A stretch of DNA of 26,358 nucleotides from Saccoglossus kowalevskii. Taxonomy: Eukaryota; Hemichordata; Enteropneusta; Harrimaniidae. A program made the translations under genes and the position numbers. Below, in pieces: positions 2,898 through 24,931 of this stretch. The stretch lies in NCBI RefSeq assembly GCF_000003605.2, contig NW_003119428.1, positions 244,022 through 270,379 of the forward strand, in the 5' to 3' direction. The first letter of the stretch is position 1; each line of letters begins with the position of its first letter. Under the pieces are notes generated by a model. It saw only the letters and a program-made list of their open reading frames with translations. It had not been told where the DNA came from and ran no database searches.

Positions 2898-3126
2898 CTT
2901 TCTTGGATTTGTTAGTTATAACTTCGGCTTTTCTCATCCCCTGAGGCTCAATTGCTTTGTAATTCCACGCCATCCAGGAGCGTGGTACAGGATTAGTACC
3001 GTCAATCCACTGCGAGGTCACGGTGCAAATATCAGACCGAAAATTATCATCAAACTGACGCCATGATGTTGGGAAGGCTTCGCAAAAGCTACTGTAAATA
3101 GCTTGTGATAGCAAATCTGGATAATT
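2898..3126 (-). CDS. FAM227A: FAM227A coding exon 8 (last one seen)
   Basis: 229-nt exon, phase 0 in and 1 out, acceptor TTACCTTTGTAG and consensus donor AAAG|GTAAGT. It encodes NYPDLLSQAIYSSFCEAF, then a Trp-rich stretch (SWRQFDD, SWMAWNYKAIEP) and a basic end (NKSKKG). The strong donor shows that the gene goes on. Reading through it would give a stop after 18 more residues, a less likely alternative C-terminus. Confidence 0.9.
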
Positions 3127-6100
3127 CTACAAAGGTAATAAAGAAAGTAATTCTTATGGTCAGTTGATGTAATTGTATGAACCCAGAAACTCAAATTTGA
3201 CTAAACATGGAATTGCTTTTTTAATCACATTTTCTGAAGTAATATTTCAAATTTAAGAGAAAATAAAAAATACTGCTTGAGAAATCCGTGAATGTTCTCC
3301 AAACGATGCACTAAATTACAGTTCTATTACTTTATTTCAATTCAAGCAAATGGTATTATTTTGGCACTTCAAAATTGATTTTTAATATAAATTTAAATGC
3401 AAAAGGCATATTTTCAAGGATTTCCATCCAAGTCTGTATTTAGGGATAACTGCAGTACAGTTTAATACTAATATCTACACTGAGGTCTTAAAGTTTTAAA
3501 ATGATTGCTGTGAGCGCCTCCTGGGTATGTTTAGCGCCCCCTAGTGGTCAAAAACCTTAGTTTTTCAATTTTTGTTCAACAAGGCTGCTTAAATTTATGA
3601 TTTTGGTGAATTGCTCATGGTGTAAATCATTTCACTTTGAACATTAATTATTATCATACAAGTATAGTAATTAATTATTAAACCCATTGTCTGTACTTTC
3701 TCTTTCTTGCTCCAAATCAAAAGAGCACTTTCTTTTTATATAATTTTAATCAGCAAATTTGATCAAGACAATGAGAAATTTCCAATCAGTCCAAAATAAC
3801 ATTTGTAACAATAACATTTGGGACTGACTGTGTCAACGCCATTTGAAATACATGGTCGTGTACAGTTTGGATCATTAAAACAACAGATTTTCCACGTTTT
3901 CGTTCCAGTTTTTGTATAATTTGGATTGTAATTTGCCCATTAAAAGTACAGTTGTGAAATAAACCGTTTTTTTGGCTCAAAAAAACAACAATAACATTTG
4001 GTTTATCAATTACCATAAAATTAATTATTTCATTTATTAATTTACTCTATTAATTAATTTGTGCATTTATTCAACCGCAATAAGCATCACGGGCGAGTGA
4101 CCAAGCGTCACGGTACCGTGTCGCTTCATAGGCCTGGGGAGAACACTGTCTTATTACCGTACTGGTAATTCATAGAATTCAAAAAAAAAATTGTAATTTG
4201 CGGCATTATAAATAATACTGCAAAATATGACATCACTTGATGTATGTGTCATATGTCAGGAATTCTCCAAGTACATCTCCAGTTATCCCAATGGAAATCA
4301 CAACATATTGTACCAGCGACTATTTCAACAAAACCTGAACTTATACTTTTTACTCAAGAGAGAAGCATAACTACAGGCCTATAGATCGTAACATTTTCTC
4401 AGTCAACACAGATAGAATTAGAAAGCTTCACTCAGCATGAATAACTTTGAGGTCATGTTGTTGAATAAATGGAAGTCCATTGCTACTATATATAATTGCC
4501 ATGTGCCAATTGTGTAGATAATATTATGGTCAATGTTACGTCTATCTGTATCTTTTTTCATCCCAACAAAAAAAACGAATCACTGTTTATTAAATTGGGC
4601 AAAAACAGTTCTTAAGCTTTTATTTCACACACAAAACAAAAATTTCCAGTTTAATCCTTTTAATTCATGCTCTTGAAAAAAACAATTATTTTTACTACCG
4701 AGAAAATGGTATACCGATACATACTTACTGTAAAATCTGTATTAGAAGCGGCGGCTTCTATTAAAATGGTCCAATGCAACAGAGGAGATGGGGCTTCTAT
4801 TACAGCTTCAACACATATGAGAAATGAAGAATTTTGGGTTCTCAATTGTTCAAAAAGAATGTGTGCAATTTCTATTGGGGATGCGGCTTCTAATACAGAT
4901 TTTACGGTACTTAGTAGCACACGTGTAAAGTGATATTAGACTTTTTAGCAACATTACCAGATTCAGAGTATAGTACAACACAATCCTGTAAATGGATTAA
5001 TTTAGCAAATGCATTTCTACTGAAATAAATAGAACCTGTGATAATACATTCTCATATTAAACTAAAATGCAGTTTAAATGAAACCAATAAATTTCATCGA
5101 ACACAATCATAATAATGATGATCTTAAATTAAGTTCCAATTTTTCATTGTAAAAAATTATGGAAAAAAGTTAGAAAATAAATGGAGCTAGTTGTATGGGA
5201 GATGAAAACTAACATAACTGTGAATTTGATTTTGTTTCAAAGTATCAAATTTTTATTATTCATTAAACTCAAGAAGTTTAGCGGCACATAAAAGTAAGAG
5301 AATTCATGCGGCAACCTTTTATGCTTATATGACTTATATTCATCTCAAGACGGTAATAATCACATAGTTCTTGCGAGCCATTTCCTTCTGCAGTCATAAA
5401 AAGATTACGATGTAGTAATAACCATAAAAATTAACGTACCTTGAAGAAGACGTCTCGGTATTGTGGTTCTTTGGCATATAGTAATAATTTGACGTAGTTG
5501 TGAGCTATGCGGTTGAATAATTTGGACTGTGATTTCTTACTAGGATGATAGTGCTGTAAGAATATCCACCAATATGTGTCCTAGAATAATAACAAATTTG
5601 AGTCAGGGCAGCACTATACTAGCTTTTATATGCTAATGGGGGCATGCGAACATGACAGGAATAGATTACCTAATCTTAGTATAGCGTATAGACAGAATTG
5701 TAATAAGACTCAGAGGTACAGTCAGATGCAGTTTTTAACAGTGCTAAGATACCTCTATGACTCTCTTCATGTTGATCGATGAAGGTTGATGAACGTGGGT
5801 GAGTTTGAAGTGGACATGAAGGGTTACTCACATGAAAAACATCTGACATCGCCCATGTTTTACTACAGAACTACTTATTATTTTTTTCTTTGTACATTGT
5901 ACACAGGAGTTATTTTTAATAATTGAACAGGTTGGGTTTTACTTTTCCTGTATAAGAGTCCCATGTATTATCCTTAAATCAGAGAAAAATAATATCAAGT
6001 TTATCTCAAAAATTGGACTTTCATGAAAATGTAATGATCAAACTTAACTTAGTCATATGGATTGTTTTACTTGCATGTAACAAAAAAGCCAATTTATGTT

Positions 6101-9100
6101 CTAATCTCCTCTAAAAATTATTAAATTATTTCACCAGTATCTAGGACTTACCAGCTCAGCGGATTCACTGCAGTAATCCAATTTGACCACTATATTTAGG
6201 TATATGTAACATATAAATATCTATAAATTGCATGGTATTGCTATAAATAGATTACTTCAAATGTTATTTGCGGGAAATCTAATAAATGTTGCAGATATTA
6301 TATTGTTAAATTACCTTCTCTACGATAACTTATATTCACTTTTTTTAATCTAATTTTCTAAAATCATTTTTATAAATTTTTTTGTGAAATATTTAATGAA
6401 TAGATTTTAAGATTCAAGTTGTACTCAAATTGTGTATTTCATTAGGATTTATATTATCATGGCATATTTTAATTTTATTGACTAAACCTTGCGACAGACT
6501 GGCTTCATGCTGAACAAGTGACCCAGAATAAATAATGTATAAGTAAGTACATGTAGAAGCAAAAACATATGGTATGCTTTTATTAATTTTATTTCATAAT
6601 ATTATTTAATTATAATTCTTCAGTCAGTAAGTTAATTTTTCATTGATCAGCAACCCAAATACCAACATCAACCATTAAATAAAGCTGAAGATGCCCAGGA
6701 GACATAATATATATTAAAGATGGAAGAAGACTATATTTGTTCTAATAGTATTATAGTACTGTAAAATACCTTATTTTAGCTTGGAATTTGTTTTCGTTAA
6801 AAGGATGATTCAGTGAAAATAAAATCTATATACTTTTTTTCCCTATATTTTACATTCTACTCATCAAAAATCAGAGAAAATAAACGCCGTACAAAACACC
6901 CAAAAAGTATTTTTATACAGTATGCTTCATTATTAACATGTGACTATAGATGCTCTTTTTTTTATTTACAGATATGGTAATTTTCAAAACAAATTTTCTG
7001 GTGATTAGAGTCTTATGATACATAGATATACTAGTACTTTGGGGATTTTAGGAGATACATTTACGCTACTCAAAAGTACCGTAATTTAATAGAGCTTAGA
7101 GAGAACTACTGTGAGCTGAGGGCATTGATGTATACGGGTAGTATACAGTACATGCATGCACACAGGGTAACTGAAATGACTCATTGTGTGTCACACATGA
7201 GAGTAAGAAATGATCTAATTTTCTTTGTCACATTTTATGTTACAAGAATGAAAAAAGTAAAATTTATGAAAAAAACAAAAACAAAAAAACAGATAAAATA
7301 GAGGTCCAATATTGAAAGTTTTAAGGCATTTTATTATTGTTTGCTACTGCAAGGAAATATCTCTAACAAGTATAACATCAATTGACATCATTTTAGTAGA
7401 ATTGAAAGACAATATACCTTTTTATAGGGGTTTAATTTTGTCAAATTCTTATTTTTTTCATACTATTTGATAGTTTTTTTCCGAAAAGAACAGGTTAACA
7501 AAAAAGTCTGTTATTAATATTGAAATAATTATAAAGTTAATACAGATTTTTACATGAAATAGCATCGCTGATATATGTGTCAGCATGGGTACATGAGTAT
7601 ATGAGTAATCACTGTGGTGATGATGATGGTGAGGAAAAGAGACAGTTTGTATGTTAATGGAAGATAATCCACATCAGATTTGGTGATAATTGTGACCACA
7701 AAAGATACGATTTAGAATATAAATAACCTCAATGTTGAAAAAAGCATGCATGACAATATCGCCATCGGCATGTTCAAAGGTTCCCCTGGGAGGACACTAA
7801 ACTAAACACAGACAATTAGTATCTTCAAGAGTAAAACCCGCAAAGTGCAACCCTGCACCTAGAAACTAACGAATAAATCATCACACCTAAAAACAAAAAT
7901 GTGTATGTTCATTCTCGCTTCGGAAGGTATAAATGATAACACTTTATTGATGGAACACGACCTTGGAGTGGCCCTTAGCAGTAAAGTGCATGTACTCAGC
8001 ACTGGCAGGTACTTGAAAACCCGGGGGCCATGAAAAGTAGTAGTCAATAAAGATTTATAATGCAATGAACTAAATGAAGTTTATACGGCAATGAGGTAAT
8101 GAACCTTCTACTCAGTATAATTGGATTTCAGTCTCCAATTTTTAATGTCAGCTTTTATTCTAAAATATATTAAATTGATAAATACTCAGTAATACTATTC
8201 CAATCAGTGAAAGACAACACTGCCCTCACAGTTATAATACTGAGAAGTAAAGTACCCCCTCTAGTGGTAAATTACAGAGTTACTCACCACAAGGATCGCT
8301 TCTGACATCCTAGAATAAAATAGTCTTTTGAATTCAGCTTTATAAAATGGCTTTCTGTCTAAATCTTTTTTGGCTGAGGCTATTTTTTTCAGTATGGTCA
8401 ATGCGTCCACGTCCGGTAGAGGTGTTAAGTCAGTTGGTTCAAATCCTGGATACTGGTAAAGCTGTAGGAGTTGACAAAACAGAGCAATGTAATTCTCAAA
8501 GAAAGCACCTTAATAAAGTATACACACTCTACATTATGGCCTGTCAGCAGAAATTATAGAAATCCTGAGAATGTGACTTTTTTTCTCACTCATCACATTG
8601 CATGAAAGACAATTTGCTTCCTAGAGTTACTGAACCCAACAAGTAAAACATTGACAGTTTTATATTAAGGTATAGATTAATCAGGGGAAATTGAAAACAA
8701 TTTTTTGGTGGTGAAAACTTACCTCTACTAACTTTGGTTTAATGGCACTCATCTCCTTTGACTGCTGAGTCTACAACAAATTAAAGATATGTAGTAAATA
8801 GATTACCATATTAATTATTAACATTTTCTAGAAAAAACAAATACTGATTGTTGTGGAAACTTTTACTCAGAACGAAGCAAATGCTGATGAAGCAAATAAA
8901 GAAAATGAAAATGAACTACTTCAGCCACACCATCAGACAAAACAGCCTGAATTATCCAGGACTTCACAGCAGCTAAAAAGAAGCAAGTGAGACCCACAGG
9001 AACGACATAAGGGAATATCAGGGAAGAGCCTGAAAGAAGCACCAAGAATATTCAAAAATCAAGATCCATGGAGCTAAATTTTGAGCCATATGACCAGAGA

Positions 9101-12100
9101 GAGGGATTGATACTTTTATGACTTTTCTGTTAAAATATGTTTCAGTGATTCTCTTTTTATGGCATGTTAGATAACTACCCGTATTCTGAGACTTGGTATT
9201 TAACAGTTATGCAATTGTTCCAGTCCAGTTGTTCAATAGTAATATGTAGGACAGGATATGTAGTTGTAAGTTGAATAGTAATCAGTCAAGGCAAGTCATT
9301 AAGGTTCCATAATGTCCAATGTATGTACCCGGTGCCTAATTTGAATGAAAACCATCCATACACAACCAAGATTGGTTCTGGAGTGGCTGAAATACTTGAT
9401 TTTGTTTTTAGCACAAAAACGGTCGTCATTCAGCCAACTTCAACCGCACCATGAAACAAATAGTCATTCATATGTATCCCAAGATGCATTATCATAATTG
9501 CATACCATAAGTAAAACCATTATTTTATTTTTAATATTTAGTAACATTATTATTAATCTTGGTAGTGACACAAATTTAAATGAAGTATAAAGCTACATTA
9601 CTCTTGTATCAAAACTCATACAACACGCTAAATAGGTGGTGTACCTCTTGCATCATTGCAGTGTACATTTCTTAGCTATAGAGGGCGCTATTTAAACCAG
9701 GCACCTCTGACAGCAAGGAACTAAAACTGAAAACATGGCACAGTAAATGCTATGTTGAATCAAATTAACGTGTACTGTATGAATGACTTGAACAGACACT
9801 CGCGTACAGCACTAAATCGCCTAGCACCACAGCATGTCTTTCGCTCATCCACCGGCATCCACCAAAAAGGGAAAGTGATTTCTGTCCATACCGATCTAGG
9901 CCACACAGCGTAAGATATTGGGGCAAAGGCCCTCATATCTGTACGAATGGTGAAACTCGCAAAAACGAATTGTGCAGCTTTAATAACAGTAAAAAATACT
10001 GACAAATAATTGTGAACTCATAGTAACTGCCAACATAGGAAATAAAGCAAAGGAATAACATGTCTGAGAACATGTGGATTCTATAATGCATTACTTTATC
10101 TAATATCCATTGCGTTTTAATTTTCATTTCAGTGTAAACAGGTAAGGTGGAATAAATTGAGAAAACTGTCACAAAAGTGTTTTACATGTTTCTGAATTTA
10201 TTCCCCATAGTGTGGATAATATCAAGAAGGATCCCAGTAAAACAATTAAGTAAAAGTTAACCTACAAACCTTTCTGCTGGCAGGCAAAGGAATCTTCGTA
10301 AGCTGCTTGACTTTAGTATTGACCTGAGGCAACAAAGCTGTAAAAAATAAATAAATATGTAAATACTTACAAATACATCATTTTCACAGATGAAAACCAC
10401 CATCTTTTAGGCAGGTAAAAATACCAGCAGGACTTGAACTTCACAGATGCATCAAAGGGCTTCACACTATAGATGCCCTAAGAGTTGTCTTCAAACATTA
10501 CAAATATTGTCTATGTTATTGCTAACAACAAATTTATTCAACATTGCCTTGGAAACTAGCTGGGTGCCTTTTCAAGCCAGAAGTTCAAGCCCTATACAAG
10601 CGATAATAATTCACCTTTCCGCAATTGAACATTTTTGTCATTTAGAAAACTCTTGCTTATCTGACAATGTACACAGCTCTACACACTGTTTTCTGTTTTA
10701 AACATGTTTTGCAGTGTTTTTGACTTGCTAAGTCCAGACTTTTTTATTCCTTGTTTCAGACAATTTTTTTGAGGAGGGCGGGAAAAAAATAAAATTAATT
10801 TTTTTTCCATTAGATTTGTGTGATTCTCAAAGAATTGTAAGTGAGATCATTGATCTGAAAGAAGAAATGAAATAAAAATTTATTCCATGTATAACCATGT
10901 TTCTCATCTGCATGAGACTTCAGTACTTTGATCATGATACTCCCACAAAAACTTGGGTTTGTTATGCGGCGAGCGAAAAAAAAAAACGAAGATATAAATA
11001 AGTTTTTTTTAGCAATTTTTTGCACTTACAAGTCGGTGGGCATGAGAAATTACGCTGAAATAAAATTTTATTTTTATTTCATTTTCGGCATCTGTTCATT
11101 CGGTGGGTTCGCGAAACAAGGGATAATAAAAGTCTGGCCTGAATAATACAAGGAAGCTATCACTGAGCTATCACAAAAGTTTCACTACACAATAGACAAA
11201 CTCTACCCACCAAGTAACAACTGGCAGTTTGTTACATTCGGACAATTATCTGAATAATCGGCATTTCGTTGCCTTCAAGCAACTCTCAAAAATGATTGGC
11301 AGTCCACTGCCTCCAAGCAATTTTCAAAATAATCAAAAGTTCGTCACCATCGAGCAAATCAAAGTAATCAACAGTATGTCACCTCAAAGAATATAAAAGA
11401 AATCAGCAGTCTGTTGCCTCTAAGCAAATCGATGTAATCTGCAGTTCATCTCCTCCAAGCAAATCAAAGTAATAGACAGCCTGTCGCCTCCAAGCGAATC
11501 AGGTGTGACATGCAGCGCCAAGCAAATCAAAGTAATTAATCAACAGTCTTTCACCTTCGAATAATTCTCAAAATAATTGGCAGTACTTCCCAACAATATA
11601 GAAATGGAATGCAAATAGAAGTCTATGACATCCCATTAAGTGTCATGTTTGCATAAACCTGAATGGGGAAAGATTTTACTAGCATCCCAGATAGGCAATA
11701 GTGGAATGAGGTATAGGGAAGGAAACACCACATAGACTTGCTACCAGTAAACAAAGATTTGTATAATACATTCCATAGATAATGAACTAAACAAAATCAA
11801 CATTGATTCTGAAAAAAGACTACTAACTAACTTACTAAAAAAAATAACTTACTAGCTTTAATAGAGTAGAGTCCAGCGAACTGATTCAATTCTCTGATTT
11901 CTTTTTCTATAAAGTAAAAACAATAACGTTTAACATTTTGTATAGGCAATAACTGTAACTAACTTTAGGCAAGAAACTGATAACTATTGGTACTCTCATG
12001 AATGTTGTTGTATGATTATTTATAAGTTTTTAAAGAGCCTTTTGAAACTCAAAATGGTGGTTGAAAATTGTCTACTCAACCACAGCAGCTTGGAAATGGA

Positions 12101-14750
12101 CATCACTGGTGCAGATGAAGGTAATTTTCAAATGATCTGAGCATTGATTAATCAGCAAATTAGTTTTGCTCAAAAGGGAAACAGTTGATTCATCCCAGAT
12201 TACCGGTACATTCATCCCAGGTAGATTTCTCTTAAAGTTAATTCATTTCACAGGTTGATTTGTTTCAAGTCACAAACAGGACAGTAAAAAAGAGCATCAC
12301 AACCTTTCATTCAAATTTGAATTTATATTTATAATTATTCAAAAATTTTTTAAGTCAAATCAAAATGAGTGTATTCTTTAATTTATGTTTTTATGGAAAG
12401 TAACCCACTTTTACTCACTTTTACTTTACCAGTAAAGTTATAATAGTTTGCACTACACTTATAAATGTGCAGTAACAAACAATTCAGGAAAAATAGCCTG
12501 TTCATTTATTTTGAAGAATTTGTGTTGTACATAGGAATTGTAACAACCATACTCATGTTTGCCGTTTTGCTGTCTGAAACTATATGGCGTGGACAGTAAT
12601 GAATAAAGAATACAGTACATGTTTTAATACCTTTTTGATAACCCTTTTCTCTGTACGGTGGCTGCACATCCATCGCTGTTCCATAATCATCATCAAAATT
12701 GGAAGCTCTACTTTCTATGACAAGTTCTGTGTAGCTTTGCAACTGCTGATCTAAGTGAGCTATTTTCTCATTGACTCTATCAATCGAGCCAATCAGAAAT
12801 GCTGTTACATAATGGGTCAAGGGCCTTTCAGGTAAACACACATTTCAAAACAGAAATTTCCTATGTAGATGTATTCTGTTTCAATGGTGTTAGTGGATCA
12901 ACAACAACAAGGTTACGAGAGGTGTCACAGAAAGTAGAGGTGTTAGAAAGGATTTAATGGCATCTTCAATGAAGAGGAGGTGATACTATAACAGCAAACT
13001 ACATGTGCAAACAGTAAGGTGATCATTTTGACAACACAGCAAACATACCATATTTGCACTATGATAGTACTTTAACCTTTTCACCACCAGTTCCCTCTTT
13101 TCATCACAAATTCACAAAATAGTCCTGTTTATAGTATGCACTTTCCTTCAAAAGATTGGGACAAAAATAGCCAAATTTTTTTGAGTAAATATGGAAAATT
13201 TACTCAAATTTTGTCTGTTAGCTCCAAAATTAGGGTTCATTTCCAAAAATATTGAAGAATATAAAAAAAATGGAGCAGACAAATTTGGGTGAGAAGTCCG
13301 ATGGTGAAACGTTTAAATGACAGGTGCGTATCTGTGGTCACAATATCCAGTACACTATAAATATTTGGTTAATGTATACACTTCTACTGGAAATGTACTT
13401 TTAAAAGAGCAAATATGGTAGGCTTTAGTTTCTCTAAAATTTTTGAATAAACAATTGCTAACCACCAAAAAATAAAATAAAAAAAAAACAGTACATTTAA
13501 AACATGAACAATTTAGTCATACACTTATTACATGTATGACTGCCTTGAATGACTACTATAATGATCTGCTTCATACCCCTGGCAAAGTTTCTAAATAAGG
13601 CATAACAGAAATCAGGTATATGAAAGCTATCACCTCTACATTGGGAGAATCCTGTGACTATCATTAAATTTGTTTCCTATTAAGCTTTTGACATCTTTTA
13701 ATTTTATCTTATAGTTTAGCTACTGTATTTTGTTATGATTTGTATTTTATTTACCATACTGCGCCCTCTGATGGCATAATAGTGTAATAAAGTTATTATT
13801 ATAAAAAATGGAAGGATCAATATTAACAATAAATGTTTTCACTGATTCTGGATATGGTAATTAAAGGGTGGGGGTTGTCACGCAGCTCATGTTCAAATTT
13901 CGTGTAAATAAACAATGTATTTTACATGTGTTGTATATGGTAATTGTTACGAGTCCCATATCGAACAGAACCACTACCCTTTAACTTGAATCAACAGCAC
14001 AATTTTACATTTATTTTTTTTAAACAAGGATTTCTATTTTATGATGTTTTCTAATTCATTGAAATCTCTTTCCTCTTGCAAATTATGGTCTCTTCTCAAT
14101 CCTAGGCAGGACCTCACGCCGTGACACGGAAAACGATTTTCATCTAGTAAATCCAAGATTGTATTGATAAATACACATATATAATGCGATTTGTTGTAGC
14201 TTTTCTATCAATTATGTTTCTATTAGCCACATACAGTGACCTTTGTTACAATTCAACTGTGAATTCCATGAAAAAGGAACTTAGAATTAAATAAATTCAA
14301 AAGCTTATTGATCATGTTAGTTGCGACATGGAGGTAGCAATACATATGAATGGTATTAATTTTATGATGTGCACATATAGTACTGGGTAAATCAGTCACT
14401 AGTGGTAAATAAAATCATGACTATAAAAATTTAAATTTATGTATTGTATTTTTGAAAATAAAACCAACTTCTCCAATAACCTGACACAACCACGTGTTAT
14501 TACAATATTTTAGCGTTGTAGAGAACCTAGCAACCAAGACGGTGACATCGGTCTATTTTTACTCGACTGTCAACTGTCTGAGCAAAATAAAAACACAAAA
14601 TTGTTAACTGTGATTTAACAAAAGGATACCGGGACTTTCATTCTGTTTTCGCAATAAATCGCTCTTGATCAAGTCTAATTCTTCTCTGGTTTTTAATAAA
14701 TCCTCTTCATAAAGGTTCATCGGCGAAGTTACTCTGTTTATGTTCGCCAT
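2898..14750 (-). CDS. FAM227A: FAM227A-like protein (FWWh-domain family), eight exons, 3' end not found
   Basis: I assembled this gene from eight minus-strand exons: 14750-14630, 12801-12631, 11906-11853, 10337-10270, 8770-8723, 8461-8288, 5580-5440 and 3126-2898. All have AG/GT borders and compatible phases (1,1,1,0,0,0,0,1), giving 335 codons without a stop. Residues 1-75 are charged and heptad-like, so probably coiled coil. Residues 155-335 form the conserved core, with KRLFYSRMSEAILV followed by DTYWWIFLQHYHPSK (YWW at 215-217), the signature of the FWWh/FAM227 family, then a Trp-rich segment (TSWRQFDDNF, PRSWMAWNYK). Molecular function is unknown; expression of the family is associated with ciliated cells and testis. 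I chose FAM227A over FAM227B because of the neighbouring CBY1. As I recall, human FAM227A has roughly 570 residues, so over 200 C-terminal residues should lie in exons left of 2898 or off the window. Confidence 0.9.
3534..3547 (-). promoter_or_regulatory. CTCF core motif
   Basis: GCGCCCCCTAGTGG is the exact reverse complement of CCACTAGGGGGCGC, the best-conserved core of the CTCF site in bilaterians. Whether it is bound cannot be told from sequence. Confidence 0.5.
4728..4907. mobile_element. Foldback MITE, 180 bp, CTGTAAAA ends
   Basis: The ends are inverted repeats of over 20 bp with one mismatch (4728-4749 against 4886-4907; left end CTGTAAAATCTGTATTAG). They are flanked by the direct repeat TACTTA at 4722-4727 and 4908-4913, which may be a 6-bp target duplication or a TA duplication extended by chance. 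GGCTTCTATTA motifs repeat inside. Open frames on both strands here (4660-4933) follow from the palindromic structure and are not genes. It lies in a FAM227A intron. Confidence 0.85.
5440..5580 (-). CDS. FAM227A: FAM227A coding exon 7, FWWh motif
   Basis: 141 nt (47 codons), phase 0-0, acceptor TTATTATTCTAG and donor AAG|GTACGT. It starts DTYWWIFLQHYHPSKKSQS, with Tyr in place of the usual first Phe of the FWWh motif, followed by KLFNRIAHNYVKLLL and YRDVFFK. This is the most diagnostic part of the gene. Confidence 0.95.
5581..8287 (-). other. FAM227A: FAM227A intron 6
   Basis: A 2.7-kb AT-rich intron with homopolymer and TATA-like runs. At 7859-8065 there is a somewhat GC-richer minus-strand frame with no recognised homology or matching splice phases. 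A pseudo-exon with a GTAAGT donor near 6152 was considered and rejected. Confidence 0.7.
8288..8461 (-). CDS. FAM227A: FAM227A coding exon 6, start of FWWh core
   Basis: 174 nt (58 codons), phase 0-0, acceptor CAACTCCTACAG and donor GTG|GTGAGT. It begins LYQYPGFEPTDLTPLPDVD and ends FKRLFYSRMSEAILV, the family's conserved F-x-x-S-E-A-x-L segment that runs straight into the WW motif of the next exon. An internal AG at 8311-8310 (TTATTCTAG) could act as an alternative acceptor, leaving only 22 nt; it would break the frame with exon 5. Confidence 0.9.
8723..8770 (-). CDS. FAM227A: FAM227A coding exon 5
   Basis: 48-nt, phase 0-0 exon (acceptor TTTGTTGTAG, donor GAG|GTAAGT) encoding TQQSKEMSAIKPKLVE. 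The KPKLVE-LYQYPGF junction with the next exon reads naturally as the start of the conserved FAM227 region. Confidence 0.82.
8771..10269 (-). other. FAM227A: FAM227A intron 4
   Basis: A 1.5-kb intron. It holds a TAGAGGGCGC motif (9679-9688) and a GC- and CpG-richer patch at about 9770-9970 that may be an old insertion. No gene is supported. Confidence 0.7.
9770..9970. other. GC/CpG-rich islet inside intron, possible decayed insertion
   Basis: This 200-bp stretch is close to 50% GC with many CpGs, against roughly a third GC around it. A plus-strand frame (about 9771-9912, starting NDLNRHSRTALNRLAPQHV) looks coding-like for some 45 codons but lacks a good start and splice sites. I do not recognise it. 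A retropseudogene or transposon fragment is possible. Confidence 0.3.
10270..10337 (-). CDS. FAM227A: FAM227A coding exon 4
   Basis: 68-nt exon between a strong acceptor (TTATTTTTTACAG) and donor AAG|GTTTGT. It enters in phase 1 and leaves in phase 0. It encodes LLPQVNTKVKQLTKIPLPA and then SRK, a basic proline-containing linker before the conserved core. Confidence 0.8.
10338..11852 (-). other. FAM227A: FAM227A intron 3
   Basis: A 1.5-kb intron containing the 35-bp minisatellite described separately, poly-T tracts near 10790-10810 and otherwise plain AT-rich sequence. Confidence 0.75.
11222..11590. repeat. Decayed 35-bp minisatellite, about 10 units
   Basis: Units of the form CAGTYTGTYRCCTCCAAGC followed by AAATCAAAGTAATC repeat with starts at about 11223, 11260, 11298, 11335, 11370, 11405, 11440, 11475, then near 11510, 11542 and 11579. 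The central steps are exactly 35 bp and the outer ones 37-38 bp, because the outer units carry CTCAAAATAATT in place of AATCAAAGTAAT. Units differ by many substitutions, so the array is old. It lies inside an intron of FAM227A. Confidence 0.85.
11853..11906 (-). CDS. FAM227A: FAM227A coding exon 3
   Basis: 54-nt exon with acceptor TTTACTTTATAG and a consensus GTAAGT donor, phase 1 on both sides. It encodes KEIRELNQFAGLYSIKA. The matched phases on both sides and the ideal donor support such a short exon. Confidence 0.8.
11907..12630 (-). other. FAM227A: FAM227A intron 2
   Basis: A 0.7-kb AT-rich intron. No other feature seen. Confidence 0.75.
12631..12801 (-). CDS. FAM227A: FAM227A coding exon 2
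   Basis: 171 nt, phase 1 in and phase 1 out. It reads AFLIGSIDRVNEKIAHLDQ and continues through an acidic stretch (NFDDDYGTAMD) to a GTATTA donor. The acceptor (TGTAACAG) has a poor pyrimidine tract, so the first few residues are the least certain part, but an acceptor at GAAAG further upstream would run into a stop. IDRVNEKIAHLDQQLQSYTEL looks like a second coiled-coil segment. Confidence 0.82.
13076..13312. mobile_element. TTAA-flanked piggyBac-like MITE
   Basis: The left end CCTTTTCACCACC and the inverted right end GATGGTGAAACGT form imperfect terminal repeats, each next to TTAA (13072-13075 and 13313-13316), the target of piggyBac transposases. The interior (CCTTCAAAAGATTGGGACAA, AAATAGCCAAAT) recurs near 23099-23229, showing an interspersed family. 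No transposase is encoded. Confidence 0.7.
13865..13980. mobile_element. 116-bp TTAA-flanked miniature element
   Basis: AGGGTGGGG at the left and CCACTACCCT at the right form short inverted ends, immediately flanked by TTAA at 13861-13864 and 13981-13984. The geometry fits a piggyBac-type non-autonomous element, but the terminal repeats are short and imperfect. Confidence 0.6.
14526..14535. promoter_or_regulatory. Partial RFX X-box
   Basis: CCTAGCAACC matches the centre and right arm of the RFX X-box (GTTGCCTAGCAAC-like). The left arm (AGAA instead of GTTG) is degenerate. It lies about 215 bp inside FAM227A, in its first intron, and about 300 bp from the CBY1 side. Ciliary genes are often under RFX control, so the site fits the context, but one good half-site is weak evidence. 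Confidence 0.4.
14630..14750 (-). CDS. FAM227A: FAM227A coding exon 1
   Basis: This exon encodes 40 residues from MANINRVTSPMNLYEEDLL and ends in phase 1 at a GTATCC donor (14629-14624). The ATG at 14750 has an A at -3 and G at +4 (AAAATGG), close to the optimal context and to a TISU-type start. The open frame continues 21 codons upstream to 14813, but with no further ATG, so 14750 is the start. The segment EEDLLKTREELDLIKSDLL is a likely coiled coil. Confidence 0.85.
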
Positions 14751-14830
14751 TTTTAATCGAGGATGTTCGTTGTATCTCTCCTCAAATGGATTACCGGAAA
14801 TGACGTACGACAACAGTTAAAATAATACAG
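14751..14830. promoter_or_regulatory. Bidirectional FAM227A/CBY1 promoter
   Basis: This interval separates the FAM227A start codon (minus) from the likely first exon of CBY1 (plus). It contains CCGGAA (ETS core, 14794-14799) immediately followed by TGACGTAC (CRE-like, 14801-14808), an arrangement common in TATA-less, housekeeping-like bidirectional promoters. CpG dinucleotides are more frequent here than in the flanking introns. No TATA box is placed sensibly for either direction. Exact start sites cannot be read from sequence. Confidence 0.65.
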
Positions 14831-14921
14831 GCAGGGACGTGAAATTCCAGCGGTCGTTTTGTTGTTTTTGTTATCTACCTTTGGTTTTTGGTGCTGTTTC
14901 CGACACAATCATAACATCGAA
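14831..14921 (+). other. CBY1: Probable CBY1 5'UTR exon
   Basis: A consensus donor (ATCGAA|GTAAGT, intron from 14922) lies on the plus strand just downstream of the shared promoter. The CBY1 ATG at 20580 sits three bases after an acceptor (TTTCTATTCAG|AAT), so a noncoding first exon is required somewhere upstream. This donor is the natural partner and makes a 5.6-kb first intron. The 5' end is a guess; a stretch encoding a short open frame from 14859 is not considered coding. Confidence 0.6.
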
Positions 14922-16945
14922 GTAAGTAGTTTAAATCACAAAGTGTTCGTGCCTATTTGGGTTGCGCCGATCTCAACATTATTTGTTAAAATGCGAAATA
15001 ATAACTGGTCAAAAACTGTTGTTTGTTTTCATCACAATTTTCCTATTTTTCGTTGCGTTGTCACTCAATGAATTATGTTTGTAAATTCACAATCAAATAC
15101 ACAGAACTAGCTTTGATATATTATGTTTGCAACATTGGAAATGTGTCATACAATCACCACCATTGCATATACATTCACTCATTTCAATGTTGTGTAAAAC
15201 GTATTACTAAACACTGTTATTACAAAAGCCAACACCTCTCTCTACACCTCCCTTACTAAACCAACTCGACTGCAATTTTCTAACAGTAACATTAAACCTC
15301 TTGTAAATACTTACGCTTATGTTAGTGTTACAAAGTTTGATTCGCCGTTTTTTTTATTATATAACACATTAACCAAATAAACATAACATTATTTTTTAAT
15401 GTATTCTCTCAACTACAACGATATCAGAAGGTCATTCAGTACAAACTATATTATAATAAATTAATCGCTCTAGAATCTTCAATTATTCTTCTAATATTCT
15501 AATTTTGCTAATTTCAATAACTTTTTAATAATTTGTCCTAGCATAAACCCTGCTTATTTGTTACCCCATTTGCATTAGATAATATACCTGTATTAATAAT
15601 TAACCAGACATTATTCTATATTCTATTATTCACAGAAAAACATTGTAGCAGGTCATCTGAATAACAATATTAATATGTATTTTTTGACAAATTAAAAATA
15701 TCCCCTTATAGATTTTATTGTATATCACATGTACCAGCTAGGGTTACTTTTATATAGACACTAGATCTGTTATACTTGTGGGTTCAACCACTGGTGGTCT
15801 CATCCATTTGATGATTTCATTAGAATGTGGCTAAAGTTAAATCAAGATTTTTTTTTCATTTTTTTTGGAGACAATGCTCATGCTGCAGTCACACGAAATT
15901 AAGACCAGAAATTTGTCTGTTTTGACTTCATTGTACACATGAATGTGCATAAATAAAAACAAATATTTATATACTTAGTAAGTTCTAATTATTCAGGTAG
16001 ATTTACATGTACATTAATATAACATAGTAATGTAGAAATTACCAGAACCACCATGAAATGTATGTACCGATACATACACACAATACCAGTAACTATTTTT
16101 ACACTATCTGATTTATCCAGAGTGATATTATTAATTTTGATCCAATGCTGTCTTATGTTTCTGTTAATTGCCATTCTGTTAAATTTGCATGTCATACAAA
16201 TTCTTTCTTCTTATTTATATTACAGTATCTGTGTTTTTACTACTATACTAATGTATCTATGTTTTATTACATTTTTATGTGTGGATGTTTATTTCTTCTG
16301 ACGTCATGAAATCTGTCATCTGTTCTTTTTTTAAATTTTGATCCAAGATATGAATAAGCTGGTGAGTTGTTAACAAGCATTTTAAGTCAAAGTGCCTGAT
16401 TTTCTTGTCTCTCACTAATAAAACTCACTAGCACTGCCGCTTTATACACTGCACGGGTGAGATAAAACGTTGTAAGGCTGCATGCAGTCGGTGTGTTCTC
16501 TAACAACTCGTCTGATAGCATTATGAATTAAATTGATAGTCTTGCTGCTGGTCTCGGTGGTGTATGTCGCCACAAGCATGTGAAAAGAACTGTAAGCTGA
16601 TTTATTTACAAGAAACAAAATTTCGCTTGTCATGAAATATTGTTAATAGGAGTGATGTTTTACTGGTATTCTCTTAATACAGGTAGTCACTGTGACATAC
16701 ACTGTGACTTTCACTGAACTAGGAAAAATATGAAATAGCAAACATTGTAAGGAATTTGACAGTGTATATCATCCATGAATGACTTCTGACAAAATCACAT
16801 GTCTGTTTATTTCATATCGCAGTTCCTTTTTATATGATTTCATCTATGTGCACACTTACGTAAACTTTAATCAAAATAAAACAATTTCAGCCTACAAGCT
16901 CACTTCCAATAGAGAAAATACAATACTTCCGTTATTTTAAAAGTT

Positions 16946-17111: not shown

Positions 17112-17147
17112 ACCTTTCAATACTTCTATTATCTTAAAAGTTGACTA

Positions 17148-17555: not shown

Positions 17556-18103
17556 TTAGAAACTGAAAATGCAGAAAATGCAAATTTTAAATTTAATTTA
17601 GTTTTTTTTGACTACAAAATACTAGTGAGAACATATTTTGCTCAAGAAAAAAGAATCACTCTGAAAAAACAAATAATGAATATTTTGATAGTTGACACAT
17701 AACCTGAAGTATATTCATACATGTACAGATATGAATTTACATGTACCTTTCGCTTTGTTTACATTGTTAGAATAATAGTGGTTGTGAATAAAGCTAAGTA
17801 CAATGGTTTACTGGGCAACACCCACAATACACATTGTGAAGTGGTTCTATAGATTATGTATACTCCAACATACTAATTTACCCACACAGGCTGAGTACTA
17901 AGTTACGAGCACTATGGACACAGGAAGAGTTACATGCTTGGTACTGTAGAAAAAACTTGTTTTTATTTCACGATCACTGTCACGTGTTGGTGGGTAAAAG
18001 GTTTCGAATTGTGGAGAGTTTTGTTGCTGTGTGAATAGTCGCAAAATTATTTCGCTCTGATCACATAAACTTAATTGAACTTTTGAACTCCACTCATTGC
18101 TTC

Positions 18104-18480
18104 AGCATATTAGTAAGCTTTTACACTCTGTTTCATCAGATTTTAATGTATTTGTGTTTCCCAAGGCAAGCACATACTTGGTGTGCAGTGTTTTCCTGGG
18201 ATTCATTTGCAGCTTGTCGTAGTGCCAGTCTTTTTTTTTGATATTGTCTTCTTGATATGAGAGCTTTCCACAGGGCACAATAAAGCAATTTTTATAACCT
18301 TTCATCTTGTGGTTGGGTTCAGTTGGCCACATTCCAACTTGAGTAGGATTTCAGCGGAACTTGAACTTGAACTCTCACGAATCAATTGATAACATGAACT
18401 GCATTTATTTGCGAACGAAATTCTTCAACGAACTGATAAAAACATAAACTTGTAGAACTGACCCACAGTTGAGCACGAAC
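18104..18480 (-). pseudogene. Possible retroelement remnant with short open frame
   Basis: The minus strand reads, in order, an AATAAA (18409-18404), a GTTCAAGTTCAAG stretch and an ATG-led 73-codon frame beginning MWPTEPNHKMKGYKN at about 18322. An LTR end followed by the start of a coding region would look like this. No primer-binding site, protease or reverse transcriptase is seen and the protein is not recognised, so this could be chance. Confidence 0.2.
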
Positions 18481-20579
18481 AAAAAACTGGAACACAACTA
18501 TCGTTTAACTTTTAAAAGTGAAATAGAACATTACGGCGTTTTCCACTCATACAGAGATTAACCAGTCAGTGACTGCGTTCTGAATCAATACTGTAATGGA
18601 ATGTCAGTCAACACCTATGGCTTATTATGGTTTCAACGATACATCTCATTTTTCAGTGAGCAAAAACAAATTTTAGATTTCATTGATCATTGCAAATTAG
18701 GTGATAAATATGCAAATTTATGCATTTTAATATTCAAATTTAGGTAAATGTTTTCTGTTTCCTTGTTAATTGGTAGACAGTTTAATACATTCTTACATGT
18801 GTTTTTCAAACTGTCACTGCCTGCATACATGTACACTCCACTCACATTGTAGTATCACTAGAGTAATAACATTACCCGGTAGTGTGTATGTATCACCTGT
18901 TTCTGCACCGTTATTATCACCAAGGTTTTTTACTTGTTGGTTCCATGTGTAACAAAGTATTAATAATGTAATAAGAATATCTGTGTTCATTGAAGGTAAT
19001 CAACATTATACCATGATCATTTCTCATGATAATATGAAATTATATGTTTTTATAATCACCTCTATTTTTTATCTAACGCTCTGGATTTGATTTTAATAAG
19101 TCTGCATTTGCGTGAGTTCCGTTAAATGATGAACAAAATCAAGTCTGCATCAGCATTGGCTACTGTTAAGGATAAAATAGTTACAGCCATGGCTGCTACT
19201 GGTAATACCACTTTGTTTTAGCCATTTATCAGCAGCGTGTTTAGCAAGTTCACAAATCTGGTGAAGATTATGTAAAATCACAAAATTTGTCAGATTCATG
19301 TAGCAACTTGAAATATGTTACCGTAACACATACTTTATGCAATATGTATTCTGATGTTTAATTTACCTTTCTGTGGGTGATGAAATTTGTTTTAAACAAT
19401 GATCACGTTTGAAATTACTCCCATAGTCATTATGTGACAAAAATAAAATTAAATTTGATGCTGAAGACTGGCAATTTTTAATATTAAATGATTTGTTTGA
19501 AAGTACAAATATTATTGCAGCTTATCTAAGTATATAATATCTGGGATTTAGGTAAACAAGCTGGTAAAAAGGAAAATACTAGTATGTAAACCGAGTTTTT
19601 AAAAATTACTGTTTTGATGTTTTGAGAGTCAATGCTGGGTTGTAATTTAATATTTTGTCATCATCAATGCAAAAAACACAAGCTTGTTACAGTGACATTT
19701 AAACCCAGTAATTGAATATGGTTACCATTGTTACCAAGTGTGTACAAGTGGTCTGTAAGTAACCATGTAATGCAATATGCAACATATTTTGCATGTTAAA
19801 TTGATTCTTATAATAATACGTGACAGGCAATCTCTAGGACAGAGTAAACCATATTGGGTCTGTTCAAGTCAATACGAAGCTACTTATAACAGTGTACCTA
19901 ATTGGCTATCAAACCCCAATACCAAACAGTCAGACCAATCAGAGGGCAGCTTGTTTTTCGAAAAGTGTTTTTTTTTTGGCGTATCAATTCCTGCATTGTA
20001 TAATGTGTGCTTTGACTCAATTTGACATCGCAAAGAGATATAAAAACATCTGAGCTGCAAGGACTAGCAAGCATTGCACTGGTTAGTTCTTGTGTTTCAC
20101 TGTTGAAAAAGTGTAATTTATTAGGGTGGCATGTACAAAAGTAATTACAGTGTTCTCCACAAAACTGAAATGTGAGATAGGTGGCATTATTTGCATACAA
20201 TTAGCATAACACAATCATTTGTTTTCTTATTTGCATATCTAAAGACGCTAAAGGGAAGTTGGTGGGTGGCACAACAAAACCTTAGTCTTGTGAAGAACAC
20301 TGAATTTCTGTAACCATAGCAACCTATTTTATTGATAATAAAATTCTCGCTCTTACAAATGGGCATAATTATGAACAAAACTGCTTTAATTTGACATTGC
20401 CCACATATTTTATAATAATTTTTAAGTCAAAAAAATCTCTATGAAGTATAAATGTGCAATTGCATTTATTTTCTTAATGGTTGCTGAAGCAGCCACTCTC
20501 AGAATGCCTCCTATTCCGTACAGCGTTTTTGCAGTTAAATTGTATATATAACTTTCAGTTATTTATTTCTATTCAGAAT

Positions 20580-20763
20580 ATGCCGTTGTTTGGGGATAAG
20601 TTCTCGCCCAAGAAGACTCCAATGCGGAGATCTGCTTCGTTGAATAATTTGAATAAACTAGACCATGCTGTTAGGGAGGCGGAGTACGGTATGGAGTTTG
20701 GACCAGCAGCTGTCAACCTTGGTAACCATAAACTAGTGTTTGAAAATGGAACCTGGGTGGAAG
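20580..20763 (+). CDS. CBY1: CBY1 coding exon 1
   Basis: The exon begins at the acceptor TTTCTATTCAG (exon start 20577) with the ATG at 20580. It codes for 61 residues plus one base and ends GTGGAAG|GTATGT. In-frame codons exist upstream of the ATG, but they lie in the intron before the acceptor. It contains the conserved SPKKTP motif and the RRSASL 14-3-3 site. Confidence 0.96.
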
Positions 20764-22184
20764 GTATGTGTTAAAGTTGCACTATTGCACTCAAAAGATC
20801 TGATGATACATTTTAATATTCAAAAAAAGATCCTTGTTAATTCTCAAGTGTCAGACCATGATTAAAAAGCATGAACAATAAAACACAATTGTTCAGACAT
20901 GATGAAAATCCAGAGCATGTGTGAGTGTTTCTCAGATATTTCCAAAAATTTCTACATATTCATTCCAATCTACACATACACAGTTAGCTGTTGTACAAGT
21001 GATAATACAACAAATGCGATATTTACTATATGGGGGTCGCCATCTTGAAAACTGCTTCAAACTAAATAAGATCCAAGTTGAAAAACACAAAATTGTCATT
21101 TCAACTCAGGAGCCAATCGGCCTTACAGTTAGATACCAATTTTGGTATACCCAGGGAAAGTGTTTTATGTTCTTCATGTAATTCGTATGATATTGGTATT
21201 TGTATACAAATAAAAGCATTCCAAATACTTGATAAAAGAGCATTCAAAATCAGGGGAACCTGATCTTGTTTCCATGGAAACAATGCTTTTGCGACTTTCT
21301 CGTATCTTCAAGCCTGACTTTGGTGGCCATATATGATTAGAGAATAGGTAAAATACAAAGTTCAAAAACTAGTTCAGGAACCCAAAGTGTTTTTTTTTTA
21401 GGAAGTTTTAGCAAATTACTGCCCCAAAAGTGTGTAAGCCATGACCATTCTTGAATTACATTATTAGGTGTACGGTATTCCATACAAAATCATTGAGGGA
21501 TATTGAATTGGCTATTAAGAAAAAGAAGGAAATCTCAGTGTTAGTAATGCAACATGAAAACATTCTTTTTAATACCATCATATACAAGGACTGCATAAAC
21601 TTTATACATTTCATTTTACAGATGGTTCACCTGGTGGTGCAGATCAAAGAGAATTCAACAAAATAAAGAAACAGAATCAGGCACTTTCAGAAGAAAACAA
21701 TCTCCTTAAATTAAAAATAGAAGTGCTTTTAGACATGGTATGTATGTATGTATGTTTGTTTGTTGATTGATTTACCCAGACATTTCTGAATTGCATTTTA
21801 TTCTGTATTTGTGAGGTTTTTTATACATTGGGTAGCACTACCATATTTGTGCTTACTTAAATGACAGATGTGTCTATGGTTGTGGTAAGTTACATTTTTA
21901 TTGATCATGCTAGTATGTCTGAATTCGATGCTGTTGTCTTTTTTTTTTGCTGTGATCTCCTGTATGATTTCTATCTATTTCGCATTGCCTATGGTGATTG
22001 CAATATGCCCATTGACAATATTGTATAACTTTTGTAAACTTCAGTTTAATAATTAATGTTTTGTTCCTTGTAGTTGGCAGAAACAACAGCAGAGAGTCAT
22101 CTCAGCCACAAAAAATTTGAAGAACTGAGAGGCGGTAGTGGCAGAGTGAAAGACAGCAAGAAACATACTGGATTTGGAGGATGA
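20580..22184 (+). CDS. CBY1: Chibby homolog (CBY1), three coding exons, complete
   Basis: Joining 20580-20763, 21622-21737 and 22074-22184 gives a 136-residue protein, close to the 126 of human CBY1. In vertebrates Chibby binds beta-catenin and limits Wnt signalling, and acts at the distal appendages of the basal body in ciliogenesis. Visible family marks are the N-terminus MPLFGDKFSPKKTP, the 14-3-3 site RRSASL with Ser20 at the same residue number as in human, the FENGTWVE segment, and a C-terminal coiled coil (about 72-110) with a heptad at I76, L83, L90 and L97. The tail (GGSGRVKDSKKHTGFGG) differs from the vertebrate basic tail. The gene is head-to-head with FAM227A and convergent with TOMM22. 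Confidence 0.97.
20764..21621 (+). other. CBY1: CBY1 intron 2
   Basis: An 858-bp intron. Overlapping short frames on both strands at 20921-21365 have no coding support. Nothing else is recognised. Confidence 0.8.
21622..21737 (+). CDS. CBY1: CBY1 coding exon 2
   Basis: 116 nt after the acceptor TTCATTTTACAG, phase 1 in and 0 out. It encodes DGSPGGADQREFNKIKK and then most of the coiled coil (SEENNLLKLKIEVLLDM), a very close match to the vertebrate EENNLLRLKVDILLDM region. The donor is GTATGT, immediately followed by a short (TATG)n/(TTTG)n microsatellite. Confidence 0.97.
21738..22073 (+). other. CBY1: CBY1 intron 3
   Basis: A 336-bp intron opening with (TATG)n/(TTTG)n at 21738-21762, so the microsatellite merges with the donor site. 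Confidence 0.85.
22074..22184 (+). CDS. CBY1: CBY1 coding exon 3 with stop
   Basis: It starts after TTGTTCCTTGTAG in phase 0 and encodes LAETTAESHLSHKKFEELR, then a Gly/Lys-rich tail to TGA at 22182-22184. LAETTAESHL corresponds to LSESTAESHL of vertebrate Chibby. Confidence 0.96.
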   Translation: MAETTAESHLSHKKFEELRGGSGRVKDSKKHTGFGG

Positions 22185-22231
22185 AACTAGAGCCTATATT
22201 AGTGCTGTAATTGTACATTGAACTAATGTGC

Positions 22232-22237
22232 AATAAA
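22232..22237 (+). terminator. CBY1: CBY1 poly(A) signal AATAAA
   Basis: AATAAA lies 48 bases after the CBY1 stop, implying a short 3'UTR of roughly 65-75 nt. No better signal is nearer the stop codon. Confidence 0.75.
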
Positions 22238-22791
22238 ATGAATAGAGTGGTCTGAATCACTTCAAGAAATATCACACATAACGGAAACGATTGGTTTAAT
22301 TTCAATCATGTGCTCATACAGTGTGTCCTTTTGTACATTACTGCTTCCGTCCAATCACACCCTGAAAGGTACTATGGGTAAATTATCTTGACATTAAAAA
22401 ATAGACACAAAATGGCCGCCATGTGACTTGATTTTGCCCCTCAGGTAATTCCATGGTCTCTCGTCATTGCGTCCACTATTCTTTGGTTACAACAAGGGAA
22501 CAATTGATGAGATGATAGAAGAGAATTTAACTATTTGTGGGCCAAAAACAAGTTCCATGGTGCTTTTTCTCTCAGCTGTCTATTTTTTATTTGTTAACAT
22601 TCAATTGCGATTTTGCTTTTAAAAATAACTTTGTATTTATTTGTAATTTTTAGGCGTTTTAATTTATCAGACTCTACTATAAATTCATTTGTAAATCTTG
22701 AAATAAACTCATTTTCCTATAAATGGTGTCCAGTATTTTGTGAAATTAAAGAGTGCAAGCCCTCAACTATGACAGCGAGTAATACTAACTA

Positions 22792-22963
22792 CTGTAAAAC
22801 CATTCATTCTCACTATTTTGATGTTTTGGGCAATTTCACTGGGTTTTAAATTCATGAACTTGGCACAGAAACAATGAGTTCTATTGTTATTTTAAACGTT
22901 CATGTGGATTAAATTTAACAGATTTTACTTAATTTAACCAGTGAATAATTAATGCATTTACAG
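22792..22963. mobile_element. Foldback MITE, 172 bp, CTGTAAA ends
   Basis: It runs from CTGTAAAACCATTCATTCTC to AATTAATGCATTTACAG between TA dinucleotides. It shares TTCACTGGGTTTTA and the CAGTGAATAATTAAT side with the element at 17148-17354, so the two belong to one family. It lies between CBY1 and TOMM22. Confidence 0.7.
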
Positions 22964-23095
22964 TAAAAGTAATTTGTAAATATATTTTTTTACCCCTTAG
23001 GGGTTGAGACTTGACTATGTTAGCAATGATGAAACAGTAGAGGATCCAGATTTTAATACTGAATACCGCTTGAGACAATAATGATAACAGTTTGA

Positions 23096-23229
23096 CCTTT
23101 CCTTCAGAAGATTGGGACTAAAATAGCCAAATGTTCTGAGTAAAAATTGGGGTTCATTTCAAGGAATATTGAAGGATACAAGAAAAAAATGCAGACAAAT
23201 TAGGCCGAAAAAGTCTGGGGGTGAAAAAG
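23096..23229. mobile_element. Truncated copy of the 13076-13312 element
   Basis: CCTTTCCTTCAGAAGATTGG, ACTAAAATAGCCAAAT, GGGTTCATTTC, GGAATATTGAAGGATA and GCAGACAAATTAGG follow the same order as in the intron element at 13138-13300. The right end GGGGTGAAAAAG abuts TTAA (23230-23233). The left end and an internal part are missing. Confidence 0.65.
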
Positions 23230-23297
23230 TTAACATTTAAAGTGTAGAGTCCCGATGCGAAAGCATTGACGATATGTTCTGTGAAAGTATTAAAATT

Positions 23298-23311
23298 GGG
23301 GGGGGGGGGGG
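23298..23311 (+). repeat. Poly(G) run, 14 bases
   Basis: Fourteen consecutive G in otherwise AT-rich intergenic DNA. It could fold as a G-quadruplex and is prone to length error in assemblies. Confidence 0.8.
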
Positions 23312-23669
23312 CTCTAAGTTCGTGCAGTCCTTGCTGTCATGCTATTCAAAGTTAGTAAACAATTACAATCTTTGGTACCTTCTCGCAAATCTGGCTACCA
23401 CACAAGACAATGCCTAAGATCCACCATCATTTTATGAAAAATCAAAATGAAATTAATCTTCATAACTTGCAAAATTCATCTTAAAGTGCTTGAAAGTATT
23501 AGCAAAGAATAAAATTACCTTCTATCAACATTGAAATTAATCGGTCCTGGCAGCTTTCACTTACTGGGTATCGATGGAATGTTTGGTCAATTTGTGTCAC
23601 CTTTCACTATTTATAAAAATTGGATCAAGACATGATTGGGAAATTGTGTCAATTTGGTTCAAAATTAAA

Positions 23670-24525
23670 ACAAGCAGCCTATCGGCTGAGATAGCTCCGC
23701 TGTTAGCAATGCACATTTCAATTAAAGAACTGAAGACATCATTAGAAAATGAACAATATGAATAGTATCAAAGCAATCGGACTTACAGTTTTTAACAAGA
23801 AGTCGAAAATATCACTTTTTACCAAAAATTACAAAAATATTCACCAAAATAAATAGAGAATTAAAGATATCATCACAAAACAAACAAATCTGAGAGAGGT
23901 CCACATGTAGTACCTATATATGTAATATCAAAGCAATCGGACTTGCAGTTTTCAACAAGAAGTCAAAAATATCACTTTTTACCAAAAATGACAAAAATAT
24001 TCACCAAAATTAGAGAACTGAAGATATCATCACAAAATGAACAAATCTGAGAAAGGTCTACATGTAGTATCTATATATGTAATATCAAAGCAATTGAACT
24101 ATTGGTTTTTAACAAGAAGTCGAAAATATCACTTTTTACCAAAAATATTTACCAAAATTAGAGAATTGAAAATATCATCACAAAATGAACAAATCTGAGA
24201 GAGGTCTACATGTAGTACCTATATATGTAGTATCAAATCAATTGGACTTGCGGTTTTTAACAAGAAGTCGAAAATATCACTTTTTACCAAAAATGACAAA
24301 AATATTCACCAAAATTAGAGAATTGAAGATATCAACATGAAATGAACAAACCTAAGAGAGGTCTACCCAAGGTACATATACACCAAGTATCAAAGCATTC
24401 AGGCTTGTAGTTTTCAAGAAGAAGTCGAAAAAGTAAAACATTGACACGGACGACGACGACGGACGACGATGGACAATCACTCATATGATAAGCTCCGCTC
24501 GACAAAGTCGACAGCGGAGCTAACA
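23670..24525. mobile_element. HINE-like element with internal 150-160-bp tandem repeats
   Basis: The head carries a small hairpin (CAGCC-TATC-GGCTG, near 23676) and TAGCTCCGCTGT (23692-23703), repeated inverted as ACAGCGGAGCTA at 24511-24522. Between them lie about four tandem units; the marker AGAAGTCGAAAATATC recurs with spacings of 160, 157, 148 and 157 bp (AGTC at 23801, 23961, 24118, 24266, 24423). A (GAC)n tract at about 24446-24475 and a terminal hairpin (24491-24521) close the element. Internal tandem repeats with subterminal inverted repeats and a 3' hairpin are typical of non-autonomous Helentrons (HINEs). There is no coding capacity. Confidence 0.7.
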
Positions 24526-24561
24526 AAAAGATCACTCAGGTATACATTGTATACTGTAATG

Positions 24562-24567
24562 TTTATT
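24562..24567 (-). terminator. TOMM22: Candidate TOMM22 poly(A) signal
   Basis: TTTATT on the plus strand reads AATAAA on the minus strand, about 275 bases past the TOMM22 stop. It would end the transcript just before the hairpin end of the neighbouring repeat element at 24525. Other AT-rich hexamers are possible. Confidence 0.45.
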
Positions 24568-24841
24568 TTCGTTGTAGTAAAAAATGTTTGGGATGATAAT
24601 AAAGTTATAATGATTGACAGCAAATATAACAGACCATACTGATAAAAACACAGAAATGTTATTGTGTCCGTACAGTCCTCCAGATGCAAGTCAGAAATGG
24701 AGCACTTTACCAATATGTTTATGAAATAAGTCAAATTTTTGACATATTTATGAAAGAGTATATGAATTGTTTAAATGAACTTATAATAAAGCTCCTTGTA
24801 AACATAAAATACACTGCAAATAGGCATCCATTTATACTATA

Positions 24842-24931
24842 CTATCGTGGTTGCGGCGCCATAGGAGCTGGAGCTAAACCAGCTGGCATGGCTGGGCTTC
24901 CGGAATATGCTGCATTGGGTCCAAGAAGAAT
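24842..24931 (-). CDS. TOMM22: TOMM22 last coding exon (C-terminus only)
   Basis: A strong minus-strand acceptor (CATTTTTGTCTCGACAG) opens a 30-codon frame, ILLGPNAAYSGSPAMPAGL, then a Pro/Ala-rich end (APAPMAPQPR) and TAG. Vertebrate TOM22 ends QILLGPNTGLSGGMPG, so the ILLGPN start, the SG and the Pro/Ala/Met-rich tail match. TOM22 is the central receptor subunit of the mitochondrial outer-membrane translocase, and this tail faces the intermembrane space. The receptor domain and transmembrane segment are in exons beyond 24950 that I could not find before the right edge. The neighbour CBY1 supports the call, because TOMM22 is next to CBY1 in human. The local GC content is well above its surroundings, as expected of coding sequence. 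Confidence 0.88.
   Translation of the reverse strand: MLLGPNAAYSGSPAMPAGLAPAPMAPQPR

Follow-up and report, generated by a model that had tools for sequence, protein, structure and literature searches.

A probable FAM227A-CBY1-TOMM22 neighbourhood in the hemichordate Saccoglossus kowalevskii, likely inherited from an ancestor shared with vertebrates

In human, FAM227A and CBY1 both lie in 22q13.1, as stated in PMC11943489, and in Drosophila the Cby gene (CG13415) is listed, in PMC2375033, among genes with a conserved X-box and as down-regulated in dRfx mutants. Here, a stretch of 26,358 bp of the hemichordate Saccoglossus kowalevskii (contig NW_003119428.1, C1213:244022-270379, one N-free stretch, hereafter the window) is compared with these systems, within a searched genome of 572 Mb. 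In the window, FAM227A (minus strand) and CBY1 (plus strand) are head to head, and TOMM22 follows on the minus strand, represented by its probable last coding exon. The same genes are found in human, where FAM227A and CBY1 are, as we take it, likewise head to head; the place and strand of human TOMM22 beside CBY1 are assumed in the same way, and on that assumption TOMM22 is on the other strand in the hemichordate. The gene identities, order and strands proposed by a first-pass annotation hold, TOMM22 by way of one exon, and the arrangement is a new instance of conserved microsynteny; a literature search found no report of FAM227A-CBY1-TOMM22 linkage in the partial texts that it returned, and another on Chibby microsynteny found nothing. 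The preferred reading, to which we give a probability of roughly 0.68, is that of an old neighbourhood, whose linkage comes from a common ancestor with vertebrates, with a CpG-rich start region shared by FAM227A and CBY1 and an X-box for CBY1.

CBY1 is encoded by three coding exons on the plus strand (20580..20763, 21622..21737 and, including the stop, 22074..22184), recognized by Pfam Chibby and by translation, that yield 136 amino acids followed by a stop and match the Chibby profile (PF14645) at 2.5e-42 and 144 bits (cut-off 24.8) over positions 1-113 of 114. A search of the same genome with the Chibby protein returned three matches (3 of the 3 candidates scored), all corresponding to these exons, and no second Chibby gene was found in this assembly, which has gaps. 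The protein had no match in the PDB, and tblastn retrieved no relatives from the genome contig and viral contig collections.

Exons 2-8 of FAM227A, all on the minus strand, connect in a single open frame with AG/GT borders. Specifically, exon 2 (12631..12824) fits the phase of exon 3 (11853..11906), which is followed, in phase and with AG/GT borders, by exon 4 (10270..10337) and exon 5 (8723..8770); the FWWh domain starts in exon 6 (8288..8461), which alone stays under the FWWh cut-off (E-value 0.196), continues with its DTYWW stretch in exon 7 (5440..5580; Pfam and own-genome FWWh match) and ends in exon 8 (2898..3126; Pfam and own-genome FWWh match at C1213:246983-247153). The joined peptides of exons 3-8 match FWWh (PF14922, labelled in Pfam as a "protein of unknown function") at 4.9e-56 and 189.2 bits (cut-off 25) over positions 2-150 of 150. 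The predicted exon 1 alone and exons 2-5 alone had no Pfam family over the cut-off, and a PDB search with the FAM227 protein gave no match. Over the whole genome, eight candidates for the FWWh profile yielded six matches, of which three (one under the cut-off) are in the window and three on another scaffold, C1009. The copy in the window is FAM227A by position, its neighbour being CBY1 and not GALK2, because the other FAM227 gene of the genome adjoins GALK2, as we assume for FAM227B. A tandem repeat (11353-11501; 4.3 copies of a 35 bp unit) is located between FAM227A exons 3 and 4.

The third gene is represented by an exon at 24842..24931 on the minus strand, coding for 29 residues and a stop behind an acceptor (...CTCGACAG), and starting with ILLGPN, identical to the tail of human TOMM22. 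It is the probable last coding exon of TOMM22, judging by its alignment to the human tail, and it is single-copy, as a search of the assembly with the exon gave one match, its own place. The human C-terminus scores 48 at this exon, a value not reached when the window was dinucleotide-shuffled 300 times (maximum 42), nor by any of 500 shuffled queries (maximum 42; Gumbel p 3.5e-4). In these tests TOMM22 was the one query, with the human sequence only; the free choice of the gene is uncorrected, its prior being the human order, and the human letters used are identical to PDB 7ck6 chain C.

That this exon is a chance match or an unrelated terminal exon seems to us quite improbable. The scores of the shuffles speak against it, as do an acceptor, a frame and a stop that all fit and the presence of TOMM22 at this place in the human order that we presume; it gains from the shortness of the exon, which alone has no match in Pfam or the PDB, and from the lack of any other TOMM22 exon in the window or in the non-N letters of the flanks that were fetched, where none scored 46 or more. 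Within the window, the best score of the remaining human TOMM22 was 43, met by 34 of 300 shuffles, so that no further exon is seen, including the Tom22 core with its transmembrane segment. Runs of N, taken as gaps, border the window, with 30.5 kb to its left and 7.4 kb to its right, and the upstream exons of TOMM22 may lie within the right-hand run, which could hold them and thus also argues against an unrelated exon. The first-pass annotation had considered that the true TOMM22 could be elsewhere in the genome; it was sought and not found, in what is a weak negative since full-length human TOMM22, searched at E-values up to 10, gave no candidate and missed the exon in the window too. The Tom22 profile (PF04281) gave four matches in the genome at E-values of 6.5-10, none over the cut-off, and the scores of these loci against human TOMM22 (27-32) were no better than chance.

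The orientation of TOMM22 relative to the presumed human strand would be explained by one small inversion in one lineage, which is the simplest account. The exon is flanked by two same-orientation copies of a dispersed element (approximately 23672-24524 and 25435-26358), which have a common start and internal tandem repeats of 157 bp; the first copy contains 12-nt inverted repeats (TAGCTCCGCTGT/ACAGCGGAGCTA) and, close to its end, a strong hairpin (z -6.65). The element has a candidate likeness to non-autonomous Helitron/Helentron elements; a literature search on Helentrons found no paper. An inversion of TOMM22 via these flanking repeats is not favoured because both copies begin with the same sequence and have the same orientation.

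The region between FAM227A and CBY1 is where the two genes would share their start. The predicted first coding exon of FAM227A (14630..14750, minus strand, provisional) consists of an ATG at 14750-14748, a 40-amino-acid open frame and a donor, while a putative 5' non-coding exon of CBY1 (14871..14921, plus strand), proposed from sequence only, has an arbitrary start and a GTAAGT donor at 14922. Transcription of FAM227A would start in a common CpG-rich gap at approximately 14.75-14.92 kb, and CBY1 would probably start in the same gap via its non-coding first exon. The predicted distance from the provisional FAM227A ATG to the putative CBY1 donor is 172 bp, under the strongest CpG peak of the window (14451..15150, the putative promoter): the seven highest-CpG windows out of 520 windows of 400 bases begin at 14451-14751, and the observed/expected CpG ratio is 1.40 at 14501-15000 versus 0.51 for the whole window, a value that 2 of 518 windows attain, this one included. 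Moreover, the gap contains on the plus strand a site, CCGGAAATGACGTAC (14794..14808), that resembles an ETS-CRE composite, by a motif name and form that we presume; it is the sole match with at most one mismatch, and none occurred in 100 shuffles.

Both the peak in CpG and the ETS-CRE-like site count in favour of a selected bidirectional promoter, by which FAM227A and CBY1 would be co-regulated cilium genes and any break between them would be harmful; the head-to-head layout, here and, as we assume, in human, points the same way. Cby is also an RFX target in the fly, according to PMC2375033. Because CBY1 is a cilium gene, an X-box was sought in the gap, and the only candidate was at 14521-14534 with two mismatches; the window holds 14 such two-mismatch matches versus 8.9 expected, and 11 of 100 shuffles reach 14, which is not above chance. 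The gap therefore has no strong X-box, and the literature search on FAM227A, and on FAM227B with cilia, found no cilium role in the partial texts that it covered. We regard selection on a bidirectional promoter as a tentative account, against which we would bet, if not heavily.

A strict X-box, GTAACCATAGCAAC, is instead located at 20310..20323 on the plus strand, 256 bp before the ATG of CBY1. It is the only match in the window to what we take as the strict pattern, GYNRCCNTRGYAAC, and lies approximately 5.4 kb from the head-to-head gap, in a putative intron. Through this putative RFX X-box, CBY1 probably gets cilium-specific input, which would follow from the predicted binding of RFX. In PMC2375033, the X-box form RTNRCC N1-3 RGYAAC was searched within 3 kb, and the 20310 site fits this form; the fly Cby is listed there under another form, GYTRYY N1-3 RRHRAC, fitted in the hemichordate by a site on the minus strand (20480-20493), the window having four rows of that form in all. 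The position in a putative intron is a difference from the fly gene. Outside the window, two strict X-boxes approximately 165 bp apart and on opposite strands occur at L014:6469 and 6633 (near C1213:296,670-296,850).

A bolder proposal sees in FAM227A and CBY1 a cilium module of bilaterians, in which a bidirectional promoter and an RFX-bound element ahead of the CBY1 coding exon would drive both genes in ciliated cells and FAM227A would be a hitherto unrecognized ciliary or sperm-flagellum protein, the linkage having been kept for this reason; we consider it unlikely. The old, tight linkage to the basal-body gene CBY1, together with an X-box of CBY1 as in flies, offers a testable guess at the role of FAM227A.

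The second FAM227 gene of the genome bears on why such linkages last. At C1009:110321-119983 (L030, L031), in 20 kb that were read, FAM227 exons on the plus strand are followed downstream by two minus-strand open frames, read as GALK2, so that the two genes are tail to tail, with approximately 6-7 kb separating the last recognized FAM227 exon from GALK2. Joined, the two frames match N-acetylgalactosamine kinase (PDB 2a2c) at 1.2e-49, ahead of the galactokinases 2aj4 (5.2e-24) and 1wuu (4.2e-15); one of them passes Pfam GHMP_kinases_C and the other has no family match. In mammals, FAM227B presumably adjoins GALK2 in the same tail-to-tail orientation. For the dog, PMC9755188 lists FGF7, GALK2, FAM227B and DTWD1 within one 315 kb locus. 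The Saccoglossus genome retains both mammalian pairings, FAM227A-CBY1 and FAM227B-GALK2, and the comparison of the head-to-head pair with the tail-to-tail pair is a small natural control on the claim of a shared promoter.

This control gives weight to passive retention, by which the neighbours would have been kept by slow rearrangement in both lineages, without shared regulation: FAM227B, likewise beside its mammalian neighbour GALK2, provides the best available argument for linkages lasting without a shared promoter, the turned TOMM22 implies that its orientation is not constrained, and CBY1 possesses a separate X-box well away from the gap. The FAM227A-CBY1 gap, with its CpG peak and its ETS-CRE-like site, speaks against passive retention, which we rate as a serious contender at somewhat less than even odds. 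The suggestion of the first-pass annotation that selection on shared regulation had held the genes together stands in part: it gains from the same two features of the gap and is weakened because FAM227B and GALK2 stayed linked tail to tail, where no shared promoter is possible, and because the strict X-box of CBY1 is approximately 5.4 kb away from the gap. In the preferred reading of an inherited neighbourhood, the linkage of FAM227A, CBY1 and TOMM22 would descend from an ancestor shared with vertebrates, and its survival would most likely reflect a low rearrangement rate together with a shared promoter that makes the head-to-head pair hard to break.

Several observations weigh against this reading. 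The predicted exon 1 of FAM227A does not continue into exon 2 in phase (phase 1 versus 2), and no candidate linking exon of 20-250 nt was found between them at the search thresholds; exon 1 is therefore provisional, and, because of the phase mismatch, so are the start of FAM227A and the short head-to-head gap. The non-coding exon of CBY1 is predicted from a single donor, and the ETS-CRE motif was picked after the sequence had been read. As for the X-box, of 1000 shuffled windows, 20 contain the strict form and 219 the looser RTNRCC N1-3 RGYAAC, and 104,726 flanking bases hold two strict and five looser matches; the chance of an X-box in a given 300 bases ranges from approximately 1 in 70, for the looser form by its count in the flanks, to approximately 1 in 4000, for the strict form by the shuffles. 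Moreover, the 20310 site does not fit the form under which PMC2375033 lists the fly gene. The TOMM22 call depends on one exon of 29 residues, alone without a Pfam or PDB match, and the searches for TOMM22 elsewhere in the genome are weak. Lastly, the 22q13.1 block is not recognized beyond these genes: a JOSD1-like match was not found, the three Josephin matches of the genome being all on C223, where we take them to be ataxin-3, and the six Rad51-family matches are on C995, C4378 and C890, none on this scaffold. Much of the surroundings is gap, and genes absent from a gapped assembly prove little.

Among the other features of the window and its scaffold, an Rfam scan at gathering scores found no family in the window, and ten open reading frames of 48-106 amino acids within 1-2900, to the left of FAM227A and hand-picked from the list of open reading frames, had no match over the Pfam cut-off. 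Further to the left, an open reading frame on the minus strand at C1213:196855-197562 (L024:2756-3463) contains a folate-receptor domain (3.7e-17). On the other side, approximately 42 kb past the window, a minus-strand open reading frame at C1213:312131-313012 (L016:1932-2813) carries an Axin beta-catenin binding motif (1.6e-11), placing the beta-catenin antagonists CBY1 and Axin on the same scaffold.
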